From positions 1,612,001 through 1,676,000 of the forward strand of contig NZ_PTRA01000001.1 in NCBI RefSeq assembly GCF_002943425.1: DNA of 64,000 bases, read 5' to 3'. How positions within the stretch are numbered: the first letter of the stretch is position 1; each line of letters opens with the position of its first letter. The stretch comes from Siphonobacter curvatus (GTDB taxonomy: Bacteria > Bacteroidota > Bacteroidia > Cytophagales > Spirosomataceae). Both the position numbers and the translations under genes were made by a program. The notes beneath the pieces were generated by a model. That model did no database searches. It saw nothing but the letters and a program-made list of their open reading frames with translations, and was not told the origin of the DNA. Below are positions 26,023 to 35,528 of the stretch, piece by piece.

Positions 26023-26061
26023 TAAAAGAGGTCCCGGTGATTCACCACCGGGACCTCTTTT
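26023..26061. terminator. Bidirectional terminator between DUF937 gene and histidine kinase
   Basis: Perfect stem TAAAAGAGGTCCCGGTG / CACCGGGACCTCTTTTA with loop ATTCA, between convergent genes. Its right edge touches the kinase stop codon. Confidence 0.85.
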
Positions 26062-27331
26062 ATTCATCTACCTTCTTTTTGGTAATGCAAAATTCGTGAA
26101 TACCTCCGATTTCGGCGTAGCGGATCTGAAGGCCATAATTATCGCATATTTCTTTCACAATTGATAAACCCAAACCTACGGATTCGGAAGAACCTCCTTG
26201 CTTTTTAAAGCGGGAGAATAAATCGTTCGGATCATTCTGTAAAGGATGCCCCGTATTGCTAAGGCACAAGGCAGAATCGGTAGAGCGTAGGCGGATTTCG
26301 CCTTGGGGCACGTTATGACGTAAGGCATTACTGACCAGATTGGTAACCAAATTTTCGGCCAGTACGGGTGGCAGGTTAGCCCAAAACGGAGCTTCCACGG
26401 CTGTATGTAACCGGATGCCTTTGTGTTGAAGCAATTCTTCCATGTCCCATAATCGCTCCAACAACTGATCGCTAAGATTGATAGGTTGTTCGTTGGCAAA
26501 CTGCCGATTTTCAATCTTGGCCAGTAATAGCAAGCCCTGATACAGTCGTGACATCCGCAGCGATGCTTCGTAGATGGTTTGAATCCAGCGAGTCTGCTTT
26601 TCCGTCAGATGCTCGGACTGAATCAGCTCTTCTACTTTAGCCGTAATCAGGGCCAGCGGGGTTTGTAATTCGTGAGAAGCGTTTTCGGTGAATTCCTTCA
26701 GGTTCAGATAATCGTGCAGTATCTGATCGGACATTTTCTGTAACACTTCATTCAATTCCTTGAATTCAATGATGTCGGGCTGATCAAGTTGCAAATGCTG
26801 ACCACGGACCAAGTCGAACTGCTTAATGCGAGATAATGTCTCGTAAAAAGGCTGCCAGATACGTCCTGAGAGGCGATCCTGAAACCAGTACGTACCCGCA
26901 AGTAATAGAGCAAGTACCGTGGCCATCGTGAACGTAATCGCCTCCATAAGCCGGTACGACTGAATCATGGATTTGCGAATAGCTACCCGATGCTCAACGC
27001 CTTTAATGGACTCGTAAAACGTCAGTTGCCGAAAGGGAACCAGCTTTTGCGTATACCGATCTTCGATCAGTGTATCCTTAAATGATTCCTGAAAACCTGC
27101 GGGTACGCGGCCTAACTCTACTTCAATCTTGTTCTCGACGAAGTATGAGTTGGCCGTCCACCCGTAATGCTGGATATAGAGTTGAAAATCCCGCTTTTCT
27201 ACCAGTAATCGGTTTTCTACTTCATCGTAAATGAGCCATTTGATAATTCCGTAGAACGCCAGAGCCGTAGCCAGATACAAGATCACCGAAAAAAGCAGAT
27301 AGATCCGGTTGGTTTTTTCGAGCAATCTCAT
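26060..27331 (-). CDS. Two-component sensor histidine kinase
   Basis: A 423-aa membrane kinase with transmembrane helices at about 11-33 and 131-150 around a roughly 95-residue periplasmic sensor. The HisKA dimerisation domain holds the phospho-acceptor His220 in NASHELQTPLALI. The N box is LVSNALRH and the G2 box is GLGLSIVKEICDNYG. The sensor has no recognised domain. The ATG overlaps the response-regulator stop by 4 nt (ATGA), so the pair is translationally coupled. Confidence 0.93.
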   Translation of the reverse strand: MRLLEKTNRIYLLFSVILYLATALAFYGIIKWLIYDEVENRLLVEKRDFQLYIQHYGWTANSYFVENKIEVELGRVPAGFQESFKDTLIEDRYTQKLVPFRQLTFYESIKGVEHRVAIRKSMIQSYRLMEAITFTMATVLALLLAGTYWFQDRLSGRIWQPFYETLSRIKQFDLVRGQHLQLDQPDIIEFKELNEVLQKMSDQILHDYLNLKEFTENASHELQTPLALITAKVEELIQSEHLTEKQTRWIQTIYEASLRMSRLYQGLLLLAKIENRQFANEQPINLSDQLLERLWDMEELLQHKGIRLHTAVEAPFWANLPPVLAENLVTNLVSNALRHNVPQGEIRLRSTDSALCLSNTGHPLQNDPNDLFSRFKKQGGSSESVGLGLSIVKEICDNYGLQIRYAEIGGIHEFCITKKKVDE

Positions 27332-28005
27332 GCCGTTCCAAATTTGTAGCCAATGCCGTAAATGGATCGAATATAATCGCCACTTCCTTTTTCGACGAGC
27401 TTGCGACGCAGGTTTTTAATGTGCGAGTACACCATATCCAGCGAATCGGCGGAGTCGATGTGGTCGCCCCAGAGGTGCTCGGCAATGGATGCTTTCGTGA
27501 GAGCTACGTCGATATTCGCCAGAAAGTAGAGTAACAGATCATATTCTTTGCGGGAAAGCACCGTTTCCTGCTGATTCACGAACACTTTACGAGCCTGAAC
27601 CTGCACGAGTATTTCACGATACTGAATTTCGTTGTGGCCGCCAAAATTTCGCCGCCGAATCAGGGATTTTACGCGGGCATTGAGTTCGGAAAGATGAAAG
27701 GGTTTGGTCAAATAGTCATCTGAGCCTACTTCCAGTCCTTTAATTCGATCTTCCAGAGCATTACGGGCCGAAATGATAATGATCCCCGTCGAGGCCGTTC
27801 GCTTTTTGAGCGTTTCGATGAGTTGCAGGCCATCGCCGCCGGGTAGCGTTAGGTCTACAATGACGCAGTCGTATTCATACAAATACATTTTTTCATCGGC
27901 TTCGGCGTAGGTAACGGCCATTTCACAGCGGTATCCTTCCCGCGATAAATAAGCCGAAATACTTTCGGCCAGGCCCTGTTCATCTTCCACCACCAACATT
28001 TTCAT
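27328..28005 (-). CDS. OmpR-family response regulator
   Basis: A 225-aa DNA-binding regulator. The receiver domain starts MKMLVVEDEQ and has the phospho-acceptor Asp51 in VIVDLTLPGGDG and the conserved Lys in DDYLTKPF. The winged-helix C-terminal domain ends SGDYIRSIYGIGYKF. The frame is open further upstream to 28170, but the first 55 codons do not belong to a receiver domain, so ATG 28005 is used. It is the partner of the downstream kinase. Target genes are unknown; the next unit upstream is the FucP-like symporter. Confidence 0.93.
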   Translation of the reverse strand: MKMLVVEDEQGLAESISAYLSREGYRCEMAVTYAEADEKMYLYEYDCVIVDLTLPGGDGLQLIETLKKRTASTGIIIISARNALEDRIKGLEVGSDDYLTKPFHLSELNARVKSLIRRRNFGGHNEIQYREILVQVQARKVFVNQQETVLSRKEYDLLLYFLANIDVALTKASIAEHLWGDHIDSADSLDMVYSHIKNLRRKLVEKGSGDYIRSIYGIGYKFGTA

Positions 28006-28232
28006 AGCTTTTTCGTAAGGATTGACGGAGCGAAAATAGAAGGTCAATTTTGGAAATATCTGGGAAGAGCCGTTAATAAAAGGTTGAATAGTATAGGTTT
28101 GGCGGGGGAGAGTCGTTAGGAAAACAGCCATGGGTTGCCCGTCAGCGGTAGGCCTTGGATTACCCCGCATAAATTGGGTATACTGGTGCAGGTTTCCAAA
28201 ACTGTACCCACCATGGAGCAGTTTCTAACTGC

Positions 28233-29548: not shown

Positions 29549-29758
29549 GAAGAGCGGTTTTAGAATGCTTTGACTGACAAAAATAGACCTCCTGACTTAT
29601 AAACTAGCCTTTGTCCCTTAATTATTCGTATTTTTAGATTAGTACAGGATTATCCAAAGAATAAAAGAGCTAGAGAGAAAAGCTTAGCGAGGATTTACAT
29701 AATTCTGGAGATTGTTTACAAAACGATTGAAAAATCAGCGAGATACGGAAATACAATT

Positions 29759-29766
29759 TACCTTTG
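29759..29766 (+). promoter_or_regulatory. Promoter -7 element for the HYC_CC_PP gene
   Basis: TACCTTTG at 29759-29766, 20 nt before the ATG, is a candidate promoter of the metal-handling island. Confidence 0.45.
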
Positions 29767-29785: not shown

Positions 29786-30229
29786 ATGAAACCGTCGTTA
29801 CTTTTCCGCTTGTTTAACGTCTTTATGGTGCTGATCGTCCTGATCAGTTCTACTGGTTTCGGCTTGGTGGAGCACACGTGCCATATCCGGAACAAGAAGA
29901 AAGTATCGCTGGTGTCGATGGATAAGAAGAGCTGCCCTGCCTGTACAAAGAATGGCAGTTCAACGCCAACGCATCAGACCTTCAAAAAGCAAAAATGCTG
30001 TGAGGAAGAAGTACGGTACGAACACGTTCCGTATACCTCGTCGCTAACCAAGCTGGCGGCCAAATTCGTGAAAATGGTCGTAGAGTTTACGGCTCATTTT
30101 GCGTTTACCTTCTTTCAGTTACTGACCGAAGCCATTCAGTCGCTACTCTACGGTACGGCTTCGGCTCGGGCGGCGGTCCCGCTAGCGGGGCGTACCCTGC
30201 TTTCCTTTGTCCAATCTTTCCTAATTTGA
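29786..30229 (+). CDS. HYC_CC_PP family membrane-anchored Cys/His protein
   Basis: A 147-aa Bacteroidota-type protein. A hydrophobic N-terminal segment (about 8-27) is followed by EHTCHIRNKK (Cys31), a CPAC pair (Cys50, Cys53) and a Cys-Cys pair in KQKCCEEEV (72-73). This fits the HYC_CC_PP family. The spaced Cys and His residues suggest metal binding. It is the first gene of the putative copper island; the next start codon (30306) is 76 nt on, with no terminator in between. Function is not established. Confidence 0.8.
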   Translation: MKPSLLFRLFNVFMVLIVLISSTGFGLVEHTCHIRNKKKVSLVSMDKKSCPACTKNGSSTPTHQTFKKQKCCEEEVRYEHVPYTSSLTKLAAKFVKMVVEFTAHFAFTFFQLLTEAIQSLLYGTASARAAVPLAGRTLLSFVQSFLI

Positions 30230-30305
30230 GTACGGCTGGTTGATCGTAACCTTCGGAGCCTGGCTTCGAAGACGAATCCTTTTTGTTCAACAAAGCCATC
30301 ATTTT

Positions 30306-32516
30306 ATGTTTTTTCAGCGAATACGATTCACTGGAGTATTGCTCCTGTGGAGTGTTTCGGCTGCTTTTGCTCAAACGTTAACGGGGAAAGTAGCTGAAGC
30401 CGACGGCAAAAACGAGCCGCTGGTTGGAGCAAACGTCTACTGGCTCGGTACGTCCATTCATACGCAAACCGATCCGGAGGGAGCCTTTTCCATTCCCAAA
30501 ACTGTCGATCAACGCCGACTGGTAGTCTCGCTGGTGGGTTACCAAAGCGATACTTTAATGATTGATTCGCTGACTTCGGTAACGATTTATCTGAAATCGA
30601 CGAATCAGTTGCAGGAAGTTACTGTCACGAGTTCGGCCACCAGTATCGACCGCCTTAATCCCATTCAAACGGAAATTATTACCAGCAAGGCCCTGGCGAA
30701 AGCCGCCTGTTGTAACCTCTCGGAAAGCTTTGAAACCAATGCTTCCGTATCAGTCAATTACGGAGACGCTGTAACCGGAGCCAAGCAGATTCAGTTGCTC
30801 GGACTGGCCGGAAATTACGTCCAGATCAACACCGAAAATATTCCCAACATCCGGGGCCTGAATACTACGTTCGGTTTGAATTATACGCCAGGCACCTGGA
30901 TCAGCTCCATCGATGTATCCAAGGGCGTGGGTAGCGTCGTGAACGGTTATGAAGCCATGACCGGAGCCATTAATATCGAGCTGGCCAAACCCGACGGTCC
31001 CGATAAACTTTTTTTGAACGGCTACGTCAACAGCTTTGGTCGGGGTGAGCTGAATCTGAATCTGGCTCGCAAACTCAACGAAAAATGGTCGGTGGGTTTA
31101 CTGAGTCATGGAAGCACGCTGCAAAACCGCATTGACAAAAACGGCGACGGCTTTCTGGATGTGCCTCTGTACTCGCAGGCCAATGTGATCAATCGCTGGA
31201 AGTATCAGTCCGACCGCTGGATGACGCAATTTGGCGTGAAGGCTTTGTACGAAGACCGGACGGGTGGACAAACTCAGGCGGGCAAAGACCGCCCCGGCGT
31301 GTACGAATTTGGTAACCTGACCCGCCGCGTGGAAGTATTCAGCAAGACCGCTCAATTATTTCCCTCCAAACCCTACAAAGGGGTAGCCTTGATTTTGAAT
31401 GGCGTCTACCACGATGCGTCGGCCCGGTTTGGATTGCGAAATTATTCGGGTATCCAGCAGACTTTGTACGGAAACCTGATTTATCAGAATATCATCGGCG
31501 ATACGCGGCATACGTATAAGGCCGGAGCGAGTTTCATGCTGGATGATTACAACGAGCGTTTCCAGGATTCAACGTTCACGCGGAAAGAACTCGTGCCGGG
31601 CCTGTACGGCGAGTATACCTACACCATTCCCGAGAAACTAACGCTGGTAGCGGGTGGTCGGGTGGACTTTCACAATCTGTACGGAACCCGGTTTACGCCG
31701 CGAGTACACCTATTGTACCACCTGCCCGCTGAATTCGATCTGCGACTGAGTGTCGGAAAAGGCTGGCGAGTGGCGAATGCCGTAGCCGAAAACTACGGGA
31801 TGCTCGTCAACTCTCGCACGTGGTCGGTACTGGATCGGCGGCTGAACCCGGAAGAAAGCTGGAACTACGGAGTGGGTCTGACGAAAGCCTTGCAATGGTT
31901 TGGCCGCAAGGGAAATTTCACGCTGGATTTTTATCGAACGGACTTCCAGAACCAGCTCATCATCGATATGGAAACGGCGGACCGGATTTCGGTGTACAAC
32001 CTGCGGGGAGCGAGTTTCGCTAATAGTTTTCAAGTAGAATGGAACATCGAGCCGCTGCCGCGTACGGAGGTTAAATTGGCGTATCGCTGGTTCGACGTTC
32101 AGCAAAGCGTACAAACGCCCGGCGGCGAAACGGTACTCTTACCCAAGATGTTCGTCAACCGGGATCGGGTGTTGTTCAACGTGGGTTGGGCGAGTGACAA
32201 ATACGAAAAATGGAAAGTAGACTTTACCTGGCAGTGGAACGGTCGGCGACGGATTCCAAATACCGATCATAGTCACGATGGTACACTGACCTCCGTATAC
32301 GCTCCGGCTTTTTCCAATTTCAATGCTCAGGTAACCAAGAATTTCCGAACCTGGGCCTTGTACGTAGGCGGTGAAAACCTGGCTAATTTCACTCAGAAAA
32401 ATCCAATCATCGGAGCAAACGATCCGTTCGGAAAAAACTTCGACGCCTCCATGGTCTGGGGCCCTGTCATCGGAAGAATGATCTACGTGGGATTTCGGTA
32501 TAAAATTGGGGAGTAG
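30306..32516 (+). CDS. TonB-dependent outer-membrane receptor with Cys-Cys plug motif
   Basis: A 736-aa receptor. The signal peptide ends AAFAQ (about 22). A CarboxypepD_reg-like domain comes next (about 23-110), then the plug domain and a 22-strand barrel ending MIYVGFRYKIGE. Early in the plug KAACCNLSESFETNASV places an Ala-Cys-Cys pair where most receptors have none; related Bacteroidota receptors carry the same ACCNLSESFE motif and are seen beside HMA domains. Copper or another soft metal as substrate is inference from motif and neighbours. ATG 30306 is preferred to the upstream frame opening at 30240. Confidence 0.9.
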   Translation: MFFQRIRFTGVLLLWSVSAAFAQTLTGKVAEADGKNEPLVGANVYWLGTSIHTQTDPEGAFSIPKTVDQRRLVVSLVGYQSDTLMIDSLTSVTIYLKSTNQLQEVTVTSSATSIDRLNPIQTEIITSKALAKAACCNLSESFETNASVSVNYGDAVTGAKQIQLLGLAGNYVQINTENIPNIRGLNTTFGLNYTPGTWISSIDVSKGVGSVVNGYEAMTGAINIELAKPDGPDKLFLNGYVNSFGRGELNLNLARKLNEKWSVGLLSHGSTLQNRIDKNGDGFLDVPLYSQANVINRWKYQSDRWMTQFGVKALYEDRTGGQTQAGKDRPGVYEFGNLTRRVEVFSKTAQLFPSKPYKGVALILNGVYHDASARFGLRNYSGIQQTLYGNLIYQNIIGDTRHTYKAGASFMLDDYNERFQDSTFTRKELVPGLYGEYTYTIPEKLTLVAGGRVDFHNLYGTRFTPRVHLLYHLPAEFDLRLSVGKGWRVANAVAENYGMLVNSRTWSVLDRRLNPEESWNYGVGLTKALQWFGRKGNFTLDFYRTDFQNQLIIDMETADRISVYNLRGASFANSFQVEWNIEPLPRTEVKLAYRWFDVQQSVQTPGGETVLLPKMFVNRDRVLFNVGWASDKYEKWKVDFTWQWNGRRRIPNTDHSHDGTLTSVYAPAFSNFNAQVTKNFRTWALYVGGENLANFTQKNPIIGANDPFGKNFDASMVWGPVIGRMIYVGFRYKIGE

Positions 32517-32668
32517 AGTAGACTAGTTTTCAACGGTCCGCCGCTGCGGTTGACGGTTTCCAGTTTTCAATGAATTGAGACCCAGTCAAAACGGAAGTTA
32601 AGTTTTAAGTACGATTGTGACAGCTATTTTAACTGAAAACCGTCAACAGTAAACCGACAACTGAAACA

Positions 32669-33214
32669 ATGAAATTATACATCAAAAACATGGTTTGCGA
32701 TCGCTGCAAGCTGGTGGTTCGGCAAACTTTGGAAGACCTGGGCATGACGCCAGAACGCGTCGAACTGGGTGAAGTGGAAGTAAACGGTGACGTGCCGGAC
32801 TGGTCCCGCCTGCAACAGCGACTGGAGCAACTGGGCTTTGAACTCCTGGAAGATAAACGCAAGCAACTCGTCACCCAGATCAAACGGCTGGTGCTGGCGT
32901 ATATCAACCAGCCCGCCCGGCAGAACCTGTCGGACTATCTGGCCGAGCAGCTTAACCGTGAGTACAGTGCGTTAAGCAAGCTGTTTTCGGAAAGTGAACA
33001 GCAAACCATCGAGCAGTACGTGATTCGACTGAAAATCGAGAAGGCAAAGGAATTACTCAGCTATCGGGAACGCAACCTCAGTGAAATTGCCGATGAATTA
33101 GGATACAGCAGCGTTGCTCATTTGTCGAATCAGTTCAAAAAAGTGACGGGAGTAACGCCCAGTCAATTTCGACTCACCGAGGCCGTAAACCGGCAGTCAC
33201 TCGATCAGATCTGA
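32669..33214 (+). CDS. AraC-family regulator with N-terminal HMA-like domain
   Basis: A 181-aa protein. Residues 1-70 resemble a heavy-metal-associated ferredoxin-like fold, starting MKLYIKNMVCDRCKLVV with a CxxC pair (Cys10, Cys13). Residues about 85-175 form an AraC DNA-binding domain with two helix-turn-helix motifs: RNLSEIADELGYSSVAHLSNQFKKVTGVTPSQFR. It is therefore a candidate one-component metal sensor. It is placed between the TonB receptor and the His-rich outer-membrane protein. The fusion recurs in Bacteroidota, but no ligand or target is known to me. Confidence 0.88.
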   Translation: MKLYIKNMVCDRCKLVVRQTLEDLGMTPERVELGEVEVNGDVPDWSRLQQRLEQLGFELLEDKRKQLVTQIKRLVLAYINQPARQNLSDYLAEQLNREYSALSKLFSESEQQTIEQYVIRLKIEKAKELLSYRERNLSEIADELGYSSVAHLSNQFKKVTGVTPSQFRLTEAVNRQSLDQI

Positions 33215-33270
33215 CGAAATCGTATAAAAGCCATCCAGAATCCTGTAAAAAGGGTGATACGGTGCGTAAG

Positions 33271-33278
33271 TACTTTTG
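33271..33278 (+). promoter_or_regulatory. Promoter -7 element for the His-rich outer-membrane protein gene
   Basis: TACTTTTG at 33271-33278, 41 nt before the ATG. Confidence 0.4.
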
Positions 33279-33318
33279 TTGAATCCGGAAAACGAACCCA
33301 GTTTTTCCCTACAAAGCC

Positions 33319-34653
33319 ATGAAAAGTTACCTCATTATTGGATTGCTGACCGTATCAAGCTCCGTATGGGCTCAGCACGAGCCGCATCACATGCACGCCG
33401 ACAGTACAAAAAAGCCGATGGTTCACCACGATTCCACGGCTCATGGACGTATGCACGAGCATACCATGACGCATTTGTACTCGCTGAGCCTGCCCATGAA
33501 CCGGAATGGTTCGGGTACGGGCTGGCAACCCGATGCGACACCTTTGTACGCCTGGATGGCCCATCGGTCGAAGTGGATGTACATGGTTCACGGAAGCGTT
33601 TTTCTGCGGTACACGGCTCAGAATTTTACGAATTCCGGTAAGCGGGGGCAGGATAACCGAATCTCGGCACCGAACTGGGTGATGGGGATGGCTCAGCGAC
33701 AAGTGGGCAAAAACGGACTCTTTGCGGCTACATTGATGGTTTCGCTCGATCCTTTGACGGAAGGCGGGAATGGGTATCCGCTCTTATTTCAAACGGGCGA
33801 AAGTTGGAATAATCGCCCCTTGATTGATCGGCAACACCCGCACGATCTGATTTCTGGATTGACCGTAGGCTATACCCAACGATTGAGTAAACAGGTGGAT
33901 GTCTCGGCCTACGTCGGCTATCCGGGCGAACCAGCGTTGGGGCCCGTTGCCTTCATGCACCGTTTCTCGGCCTGGAATAATCCGGACGCTACCCTGAGTC
34001 ACCACTGGCAGGATGCGACGCATATTACGTACGGAGTAGCAACGCTGGGCGTACGGGTAGGGCAGGTGAAACTGGAAGGGTCGAGCTTTACGGGACGCGA
34101 ACCCGGCGAAAATCGGTACAATTTCGATCGTCCCCGCTTTGATTCGTATAGCTACCGGGTTTCCTGGAATCCTTCCATGCACTGGTCTCTACAGGCTTCG
34201 AGAGCTTACATTCATTCCCCCGAATCACTTCATCCCAGCGAAAACGTTAATCGAACGACTGCGTCCGTACAACACCTGAAAACCCTGGGCAAAACGAGCT
34301 GGTTGGGTACCACGGCTTCCTGGGGCTACAATGACGCGGGTGATCATCATCAGGAACACTCAATATTATTGGAATCCAATTGGCAACACGCCACCTGGGC
34401 CTTGTACGGTCGCTACGAATGGGTACAGAAATCGGCTGAAGAATTAGTGATACCGGGTAATGCTCTGTATAATGTTCATGCCCTGAGTTTGGGGTACAAT
34501 CATCAGGTGGCTCAGGTTGGCAAATTATGGCTGGTCGCTGGGGTGCAGGGTACAGTTTTCTTGAAAGATCAGGCGTTAAATAACCTCTACGGAAGTACGC
34601 CCGTATCGGGTCAGGTGTATGTGCGACTCACGCCAACCCGCCTGAAGATGTAA
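33319..34653 (+). CDS. Secreted outer-membrane-type protein with His/Met-rich N-terminus
   Basis: A 444-aa protein with a signal peptide ending VWAQ (about 19). Residues 20-55 are packed with His and Met (HEPHHMHADSTKK, MVHHDSTAHGRMHEHTM), a likely metal-binding segment. The remainder is rich in aromatic/polar alternation and ends SGQVYVRLTPTRLKM, consistent with an outer-membrane beta-barrel. No known family was recognised. Its place between the HMA-AraC gene and the copper-storage-like gene suggests periplasmic or outer-membrane copper handling. Confidence 0.75.
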   Translation: MKSYLIIGLLTVSSSVWAQHEPHHMHADSTKKPMVHHDSTAHGRMHEHTMTHLYSLSLPMNRNGSGTGWQPDATPLYAWMAHRSKWMYMVHGSVFLRYTAQNFTNSGKRGQDNRISAPNWVMGMAQRQVGKNGLFAATLMVSLDPLTEGGNGYPLLFQTGESWNNRPLIDRQHPHDLISGLTVGYTQRLSKQVDVSAYVGYPGEPALGPVAFMHRFSAWNNPDATLSHHWQDATHITYGVATLGVRVGQVKLEGSSFTGREPGENRYNFDRPRFDSYSYRVSWNPSMHWSLQASRAYIHSPESLHPSENVNRTTASVQHLKTLGKTSWLGTTASWGYNDAGDHHQEHSILLESNWQHATWALYGRYEWVQKSAEELVIPGNALYNVHALSLGYNHQVAQVGKLWLVAGVQGTVFLKDQALNNLYGSTPVSGQVYVRLTPTRLKM

Positions 34654-34717
34654 AAAGGATCAAACTTCCTTCAACGCTTACATTTCAAACATTATACCAA
34701 CCAAACCTTGATTGCTT

Positions 34718-35053
34718 ATGAACATGGATGCTTGTATCGAGGCCTGTCTGGCCTGCGTGAAAACCTGCGAAGCCTGCGTTACGAATTGTGTAACGAAGAT
34801 GGATCACGACATGGACCGTACCCAGTGTATTCAGTTATGCCGGGACTGTGCCGAAGTTTGTACGACCTGTGCCCGGTTATGTGCCCGGGATTCTCAGTTT
34901 GCCATGGATATGTGTAAACTCTGTGCAGAAGTATGTAAAGCTTGTGCGGCCGAATGCGAAAAGCACGCCCAGCACGGCGACGAAGTCTGTGCCCGCTGTG
35001 CCGAAGCCTGCCGCCACTGTGCGGAGGTATGCGAAAGCATGGTTGCCGCTTAA
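34718..35053 (+). CDS. Four-helix-bundle copper-binding protein (Csp-like)
   Basis: A 111-aa protein with 22 cysteines, mostly as CxxxCxxC on amphipathic helices (for example CIEACLACVKTCEAC, CARCAEACRHCAEVC). This is the pattern of copper storage proteins, whose inward-facing thiols bind many Cu(I) ions within a four-helix bundle. There is no signal peptide, so a cytosolic Csp3-type role is likely. The start is ATG 34718; a TTG at 34712 is a less likely alternative. It sits between the His-rich outer-membrane protein and an exported HMA protein. Confidence 0.92.
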   Translation: MNMDACIEACLACVKTCEACVTNCVTKMDHDMDRTQCIQLCRDCAEVCTTCARLCARDSQFAMDMCKLCAEVCKACAAECEKHAQHGDEVCARCAEACRHCAEVCESMVAA

Positions 35054-35056
35054 TAG

Positions 35057-35087
35057 TGTATCCCGACTGGCTTCAAACCAGTCGGGA
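35057..35087 (+). terminator. Hairpin after the copper-storage-like gene
   Basis: ATCCCGACTGG pairs exactly with CCAGTCGGGAT, loop CTTCAAA, followed 8 nt later by TTTTT. It is probably a terminator. Confidence 0.6.
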
Positions 35088-35089
35088 TG

Positions 35090-35132
35090 CCGTCATTTTT
35101 ACGAATGAAAGTAGCAAAAGGAAAAATGACGG
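35090..35132. repeat. Second inverted repeat ahead of the HMA gene
   Basis: CCGTCATTTTT (35090-35100) is the exact reverse complement of AAAAATGACGG (35122-35132). It lies between the preceding hairpin and the HMA start codon at 35175, so it is placed in the leader or spacer of the HMA gene. Confidence 0.5.
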
Positions 35133-35174
35133 AATGATTTGAAAACCCTCTTTGTTTATCATTTAATCAATATT

Positions 35175-35528
35175 ATGCGTATGTTAAAATCACTCGTATT
35201 CAGCTGCTGCCTCTTATTGAGCGGACTGGTTTGGGCAAAGGACGAACCCAAAACCGTAAAAATCAAAACCTCGGCCATTTGTGGCATGTGCAAAGCCCGG
35301 ATCGAAAAGAATCTGGCTTTTTCGAAAGGAGTTAAAGAATCCAATCTGGACCTAAAAGATAAGGTCGTAACGATAACGTACGACCCCAAGAAGACGAACG
35401 AAGAGCAGATTAAGGAAACCATCATGAAAACGGGTTACGACGCCGACAGCGTACCCGCCGACGCGAAAGGCTACGAAAAACTGCCCGCCTGCTGCAAGAA
35501 AGACAGCAAAATGAGTCACCACGAGTAG
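35175..35528 (+). CDS. Exported heavy-metal-associated (HMA) domain protein
   Basis: A 117-aa protein with a signal peptide (to about VWAK, residue 21) and one HMA domain. Its metal site is ICGMCKARIEKNL (Cys36, Cys39), a CopZ/Atx1-like CxxC. The tail adds LPACCKKDSKMSHHE, with another Cys pair and His-His. It is expected in the periplasm as a copper chaperone or sink. The frame is open from a TTG at 35139; ATG 35175 (or 35181) fits the signal peptide. It is the last gene of the island and has a terminator. Confidence 0.87.
   Translation: MRMLKSLVFSCCLLLSGLVWAKDEPKTVKIKTSAICGMCKARIEKNLAFSKGVKESNLDLKDKVVTITYDPKKTNEEQIKETIMKTGYDADSVPADAKGYEKLPACCKKDSKMSHHE

Follow-up and report, generated by a model that had tools for sequence, protein, structure and literature searches.

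A cysteine-rich gene island of Siphonobacter curvatus and its HMA-AraC regulator, a candidate copper switch in Bacteroidota

What purpose is served by six cysteine- and histidine-rich genes that stand in line on one strand of the Siphonobacter curvatus genome, and what controls them? The genes occupy positions 29786-35528 of a 64,000-nucleotide stretch of contig NZ_PTRA01000001.1 (hereafter the window), and encode a HYC_CC_PP family protein (HYC), a TonB-dependent receptor, a regulator joining an HMA to an AraC-type domain (HMA-AraC), an outer-membrane protein (OMP), a Csp-type copper storage protein and an exported HMA protein. A preliminary description, made from the letters of the sequence, had placed them in this order on the plus strand, with no unrelated gene between, and had named copper as the probable metal. 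Open reading frames and family matches confirm the arrangement, no other gene being apparent between the six, and copper is the likely metal. We conclude that the island is probably an operon for copper homeostasis, with two predicted transcripts, in which HMA-AraC would be the cytosolic copper sensor and activator. The parts are each of known kinds; what is new is their combination and the widespread HMA-AraC regulator, which appears to be a copper switch, not described until now, in many members of the phylum. A literature search of titles and abstract openings, with most subscription papers outside its scope, returned no account of such a regulator for copper, of its site or of HYC_CC_PP. 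The features are as follows.

29695-29725, minus strand: predicted operator, reversed, with tandem half-sites 21 bases apart matching 14 of 16 consensus positions, before HYC
29759-29766, plus strand: Bacteroidota-type -7 box TACCTTTG before HYC, by the consensus that we assume below
29786-30229, plus strand: HYC_CC_PP family protein, 147 aa, with HxC and CC motifs (NF047658, 34.7 bits)
30306-32516, plus strand: TonB-dependent receptor, 736 aa, with an invariant Cys-Cys pair (C135-C136) in the plug
32669-33214, plus strand: HMA-AraC regulator, 181 aa, with MVCDRC (C10, C13)
33218-33248, plus strand: predicted operator AATCGTATAA-N11-AATCCTGTAA, 15 of 16 positions, before the OMP gene
33271-33278, plus strand: -7 box TACTTTTG, 22 bases past the preceding operator
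33319-34653, plus strand: porin-like outer-membrane beta-barrel protein (OMP) with a His/Met-rich N-terminal tail
34718-35053, plus strand: Csp3-like four-helix-bundle copper storage protein, 111 aa, 22 Cys, no signal peptide seen
35175-35528, plus strand: HMA protein with a signal-like start (judged by eye), CGMC and a C-terminal CC (PF00403, 48.4 bits)

The C-terminal half of the regulator belongs to the AraC/XylS family, scoring 68.5 bits against HTH_18 (cut-off 33.6) and matching the folds of 6swi and 3oio. Its N-terminal half scores below the Pfam cut-off for HMA (17.4 against 24.8 bits), and the HMA assignment therefore rests on the modelled fold; the name given in the preliminary description stands for the AraC half by HTH_18 and for the HMA half by structure, not by sequence score. 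In the AF2 model (pLDDT 91.5) the elements succeed one another as in an HMA domain (strand-helix-strand-strand-helix-strand), with CxxC in the first loop, and an AraC helix-turn-helix domain follows. A Foldseek search with this model ranked solved AraC-type domains first and matched the N-terminal part to GolB (a gold chaperone), a copper-binding protein and TM0320; these matches (4y2i, 2l3m and 2kyz) have TM-scores of 0.67-0.71 by the length of the short targets, with weak E-values (0.06-0.16). C10 and C13 are the only cysteines of the protein. Both are Cys in 96 of 101 copies from the family, and the remaining five have Ser-Cys.

Searches for the regulator and Csp covered 150 genomes of the family, 79 of which have Csp, and neighbourhoods were compared for 100 regulator matches from 23 genus codes, chosen among the matches listed, so that the proportions below are conditional on that choice. 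Gene order was tabulated for 99 loci (98 and the window; L090 and L109, which have no labelled regulator frame, were left out). HYC, receptor and regulator directly adjoin one another in 53 of these, from 14 of the 23 genera, and all six genes fall within 7 kb in 24 of the 99, from six genera; a same-strand P-type ATPase accompanies 12 of the 53 contiguous loci. The set is thus conserved among relatives as the coherent group for which it had been taken, with a likely sensor, Csp in the cytosol, an HMA protein in the periplasm and components at the outer membrane; these loci answer the test of a conserved neighbourhood that the preliminary description had proposed. In Dyadobacter, Telluribacter and Rhabdobacter every locus has the order CopZ-HYC-receptor-regulator-HMA-OMP (22 of 22), with a frame for a CPC-type CopA before CopZ in 15 of 22. 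Across the family loci, CPC is present in 26 of 27 listed frames longer than 400 aa with DKTGT, and relatives' regulator loci also include multicopper oxidases. A second sample, taken as the named loci of the best 80 of 558 OMP relatives, has another copper-set gene in 55 of 80 loci, or in 46 of 80 when the regulator by itself does not qualify; nine of the 80 repeat earlier loci, and leaving these out gives 46 of 71 and 37 of 71. Beyond the family, the regulator occurs in 119 of 247 Bacteroidota genomes (E 1e-25), from 71 of 122 genera. It is also on 31 plasmid records, where the listed rows, if annotated, call it AraC-family, helix-turn-helix or response regulator; in the two of these plasmids that were examined it adjoins CopA in one and a set of multicopper oxidase and RND genes in the other.

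Within the family, a copper-set neighbour lies within 7 kb of 90 of 94 Cys-type regulators, whereas four of the five Ser-type loci have none and the fifth has only a P-type ATPase without CPC. Among 60 loci of other families, a copper-set gene accompanies 39 of 47 Cys-type regulators and one of 13 Ser-type regulators (p 1e-6), a Fisher value that overcounts since the contrast represents one or two events at most. A CPC-type ATPase lies within 7.5 kb in 29 of these 60 loci, all of Cys type (29 of 47 against 0 of 13). In 23 of the 47 the ATPase is directly downstream, five of these being non-CPC or small HMA proteins, which leaves CPC-type pumps in 18 of 47 against 0 of 13. The Ser-type clade (MVSxRC) comprises L025, L039, L078, L084, L106 and 13 of L130-L189, and its members stand beside long kinase-like and other non-copper genes; a 21-base tandem site is found near some of them.

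Motif discovery on whole upstream regions mostly returned coding starts or coding DNA, and footprinting within the genus was too noisy; the search was repeated on intergenic DNA aligned on the -7 box, whose Bacteroidota consensus we take to be TAnnTTTG. This gave tandem half-sites, AATNNTGTAA-N11-AATNNTGTAA. In 1673 kb of family loci and window, a threshold of 14 of 16 matches yields 95 pairs at a gap of 11 and 0-25 at every other gap from 0 to 35; a single Markov resample of the same DNA gave two at gap 11. A smaller excess, of 25 pairs, is seen in the family loci at gap 23 and is possibly another register. As the consensus had been derived from family loci, it was tried on the 60 held-out loci of other families, where gap 11 has 38 pairs and the other gaps have 0-14; with the threshold raised to 15 of 16 matches the counts are 17 and 0-2. 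Density (gaps 10-12) reaches 1.2-2.6 sites per kb before CopZ, Csp, HYC and P-type ATPase genes, falls to 0.4-0.5 before OMP and regulator, 0.3 before other genes and 0 before HMA, and is 0.012 in coding DNA. Fifty-seven intergenic regions have a forward site (at least 13 matches) as their best; a -7 box follows in 34, always 21-23 bases away and in 27 cases exactly 22. The five reversed sites with a box stand 33 or 44 bases from it, that is, one or two helical turns further. AraC proteins bind half-sites in tandem, about two helical turns apart and near the promoter, and by analogy with the AraC and MarA promoters the spacing towards the -33 region would fit an AraC-type activator.

The distribution of -7 boxes indicates how the island is likely to be transcribed. 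Boxes precede 51 of 80 HYC genes and 19 of 27 P-type ATPase genes (about 4 per kb) and are nearly absent before regulator (2 of 104), receptor (2 of 70) and HMA (1 of 72) genes (0.2-0.3 per kb); the upstream regions of these last three are shorter, and the contrast holds per kb. HYC, receptor and regulator should therefore be transcribed together. Ahead of OMP, Csp and HMA the window has a second box and operator, an arrangement for which relatives provide a box before OMP in only 7 of 44 cases. The operator at 33218-33248 is the sole place in the genome with at most one mismatch.

Where, then, is the pump? The preliminary description had noted that no P-type ATPase was present and had concluded that this is not a textbook copper operon. 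The first point is true of the island but not of the genome, which encodes a CPC-type CopA (TIGR01511, 627 bits, cut-off 397) followed by a 69-aa HMA gene at about 1,875,830-1,878,490 of contig 1, some 228 kb away. The small gene is over the Pfam cut-off without an NCBIfam match, and by likeness to the relatives' gene appears CopZ-like. Ahead of CopA, a tandem pair matching 13 of 16 positions ends 22 bases before GAACTTTG. This pair is a weaker version of the island's site. The pump is displaced rather than missing, and the second point finds no support in that form, given the CopZ and CopA genes that stand in line in the sister genera: the island's six genes are the form that a wider copper locus takes in Siphonobacter, with CopA and CopZ located elsewhere. 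The genome further has seven RND pumps over the CusA/CzcA cut-off and no multicopper oxidase by PF07732.

A mechanism can be proposed from these parts. Cu(I) would bind at MVCxRC, at the tip of the regulator's HMA fold, and the AraC half would then activate from the two AATNNTGTAA half-sites, set in tandem at a spacing of 21 bases and extending towards the -33 region. The targets of HMA-AraC would then be the operon in which it lies (HYC, receptor, regulator), the transcript of OMP, Csp and HMA next to it and, probably, CopA and the CopZ-like gene at their distant position. Cytosolic storage of Cu(I) may fall to Csp, as its homology suggests. Its 22 cysteines in 111 aa have a binomial chance of 2.5e-23, given how often Cys occurs in the long frames of the window; the nearest solved structures are 5fig (BsCsp3, E 8e-18) and 5arm (2e-10), and DUF326 is over its cut-off, which makes it a relative of Csp3. 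No export signal was seen on reading its sequence, and TIGR04401 aligned only from its own position 47, at 45.9 against 100 bits. HYC, the Cys-Cys receptor and the exported HMA protein could form a copper cassette of outer membrane and periplasm, with copper handed on by the Cys pair of the plug and the CxxC of the HMA protein, as their invariance and the HMA-receptor fusions described below suggest. The weakest step is the role of the porin-like OMP, whose barrel with a His/Met tail would probably bind copper at the outer membrane or admit it there. This OMP contains 28 His and 15 Met; its model (pLDDT 73.8) is a porin-like barrel with OmpF-type matches (TM-score 0.4-0.5 by query length) and a low-confidence His/Met tail. 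The window protein has no Pfam or NCBIfam match at E 0.1, and none of 27 members has a Pfam family (E 0.01), which gives no grounds for placing it with CopB or other named outer-membrane copper proteins. Among the matches listed, its nearest named relative is from Siphonobacter sp. BAB-5405 (98% identical); another relative is on two Sphingobium plasmids, and the one examined has a heavy-metal P-type ATPase within 3 kb.

HYC (NF047658 cut-off 28 bits) keeps its CC in 81 of 81 proteins, the HMA protein its CxxC and CC in 67 of 67, and the receptor its Cys pair, the only cysteines of the window protein, in 68 of 68. Among the 247 phylum genomes the receptor is in 65 and HYC in 68, both being in 42 where 18 are expected, and HYC lies less than 1 kb upstream of the receptor on the same strand in 36 of 65. 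Five cassette loci from outside the family, out of 20 first picked, have the orders HYC-HMA-receptor (one), HYC-receptor-HMA (two) and HYC with an HMA-receptor fusion (two). In the fusions (L191:2483-5065 and L193:1894-4596) an HMA-like domain stands ahead of the CarboxypepD and plug domains, its E-values of 0.001 and 5e-5 lying under the Pfam cut-off.

Several observations weigh against our reading. The regulator is absent, at the E 1e-25 threshold, from 128 of the 247 phylum genomes, and a tree of 117 non-redundant regulator copies shows just two changes between the Cys and Ser states. The site is also found near Ser-type regulators, in 4 of 13 loci against 13 of 47 of Cys type, and is thus a mark of the regulator family rather than of copper. 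Counting upstream regions in which a site has at least 13 matches gives 24 of 80 for HYC (8 of 80 with a reversed-consensus control), 15 of 27 for P-type ATPases (3 of 27), 13 of 23 for CopZ (4 of 23), 10 of 34 for Csp (5 of 34) and 4 of 44 for OMP (none of 44). With two mismatches allowed, the genome holds 11 places (ten with two, among them 29695-29725) against seven for a backward-read control, so that position, not number, marks out the island; downstream of the other nine two-mismatch places no recognised copper-related gene was found in their surroundings. The CopA pair is one of three at its level in 18 kb (gaps 10-12): by score alone it is not significant, by position it fits. Beside the five cassettes from outside the family there is neither a regulator nor CopA nor any site of at least 14 matches, which makes the cassette seem an independent module that was placed under HMA-AraC in this family; regulator and receptor do co-occur outside it in L165 and L231. 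Finally, the receptor genes share their site with an exporter, and if the receptor were to serve in uptake, an importer co-regulated with an exporter would be odd.

On a rival view the island serves acquisition, the regulator turning on uptake through receptor, HYC and HMA while Csp stocks copper for cuproenzymes and the link to CopA reflects periplasmic metal delivery, not detoxification. TonB receptors generally import, Csp is able to act as a store and the outside-family cassettes stand without exporters; OprC and CrtA, moreover, import copper, according to the available parts of their descriptions (PMC8610252, PMC12914433). Yet within the family the cassette shares its site with a CPC-type CopA, and both examined plasmids carry CopA or the oxidase and RND set, all of which points to excess, and the resemblance to those importers does not extend to their ligands, CrtA having no conserved Cys or Met in the accessible text and the CxxxM-HxM of OprC being absent from the island receptor. 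We regard the acquisition role as possible but doubtful. A structural or protein-contact role for the regulator's HMA half, with some other signal in control of the AraC half, is unlikely: although the Pfam score of the HMA half is low and the Ser-type clade retains the same DNA site, nearly all family copies keep both cysteines, one of which was lost in a clade mostly without copper neighbours (in two events at most), and in the model the metal loop appears to be placed as in copper chaperones. That the island answers to soft metals or thiol stress in general (silver, gold, mercury, zinc, cadmium) is improbable, even though HMA domains and CxxC can bind several soft metals and GolB is the regulator's best HMA fold match, because the linked pumps are mostly of CPC type, the genome's own CopA passes the TIGR01511 copper cut-off, Csp is nearest to copper storage proteins and multicopper oxidases occur at relatives' loci.

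Returning to the copper-homeostasis operon, we incline, with some reserve, to a broader view: that HMA-AraC, an AraC-type protein with a captured HMA chaperone domain and a 21-base tandem operator reaching the -33 region of a TAnnTTTG promoter, may be a main cytosolic copper sensor of many Bacteroidota, and that HYC, the Cys-Cys receptor and the exported HMA protein may form an undescribed outer-membrane copper relay, made in some lineages as one HMA-receptor fusion. Like CueR, CsoR and CopY (with CusRS and CopRS), the regulator stands beside CopA and CopZ and offers Cys ligands; it differs from them in AraC-type DNA binding and in an HMA domain as the likely sensor. It shares HTH_18, the AraC-type fold and tandem half-sites with AraC, MarA and SoxS, and differs in an N-terminal domain of ferredoxin-like HMA fold. 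CueR (TIGR02044) is over its cut-off in none of the 247 phylum genomes, 22 of which have weaker MerR-type matches at 1e-30, and has no match at 1e-30 in this genome; CsoR (PF02583) is in 74 of the 247, with none in this genome at 1e-8. Mutual exclusion of CsoR and HMA-AraC was considered, eight of the 74 CsoR genomes sharing the regulator (p 2e-15), but is not relied on because 54 of the 74 belong to one family code; by genus the figures are 8 of 17 against 63 of 105 (p 0.43). Csp3 tetramers store about 80 Cu(I), and the island Csp is homologous to BsCsp3 over nearly its full length and likewise shows no signal peptide. Characterised Csp3 proteins have 18 and 19 Cys, against 22 here, in the available part of the source (PMC5171941).

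OprC and CrtA, two other TonB families linked to copper, provide the closest comparison for the receptor. Neither type applies: CxxxM (plug) and HxM (barrel) of OprC are both absent from its 736 aa, and CrtA, which by the accessible portions of its description has a PepSY_TM gene next door in more than 75% of loci (PMC8610252, PMC12914433), differs from a receptor with CC in 68 of 68 copies and with HYC and HMA as partners, none of the six island proteins being PepSY_TM. The copper inventory of Bizionia argentinensis likewise combines Csp, CopA and a TonB receptor in a member of Bacteroidota; in the accessible part of that paper its MerR and CopY candidates lack copper sites, an ArsR-SmtB protein is proposed, and the word AraC is absent from the main text (PMC11213822). 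A survey of marine bacteria, as far as its text is available, gives only two-component and ECF homologues for this phylum among others (PMC10141476). Copper sensing in Bacteroidota thus looks unsettled in these partly available sources (PMC11213822, PMC10141476), and a regulator with two Cys, a site of fixed promoter geometry and a predicted regulon makes the question testable in one strain, while the HYC, receptor and HMA cassette offers a concrete model for the hand-over of metal ions across the outer membrane.

Some minor observations complete the description. The island is bounded, since its flanking genes, an L-fucose permease on the left and a glutathionylspermidine-synthase-like gene on the right, lie on the opposite strand; the host genome is 6.39 Mb and 99.9% complete. 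Further left, window positions 26060-28170 encode a PorY-type sensor kinase (type IX secretion regulation) and an OmpR-type response regulator whose cluster is also left of the island in four of five congeners. A CusRS/CopRS role for this pair was dropped, the kinase being PorY-type (NF052314, 440.9 against a cut-off of 350 bits), and the system is probably unrelated to copper. The 16.6-kb locus L145 has three tandem sites matching 16 of 16 positions, at 391, 2253 and -591 from the regulator start, and no recognised copper gene. Two neighbouring frames, of about 430-500 and 640-730 aa, together encode a CusA/CzcA-like pump in L034, L036, L037, L072, L074, L077, L088, L098, L099, L115, L119 and L277, the family being checked for L074 and L077 only, and the same arrangement is found on the Runella plasmid pRUNSL02; its recurrence in many relatives and on a plasmid makes it probably a true split gene.

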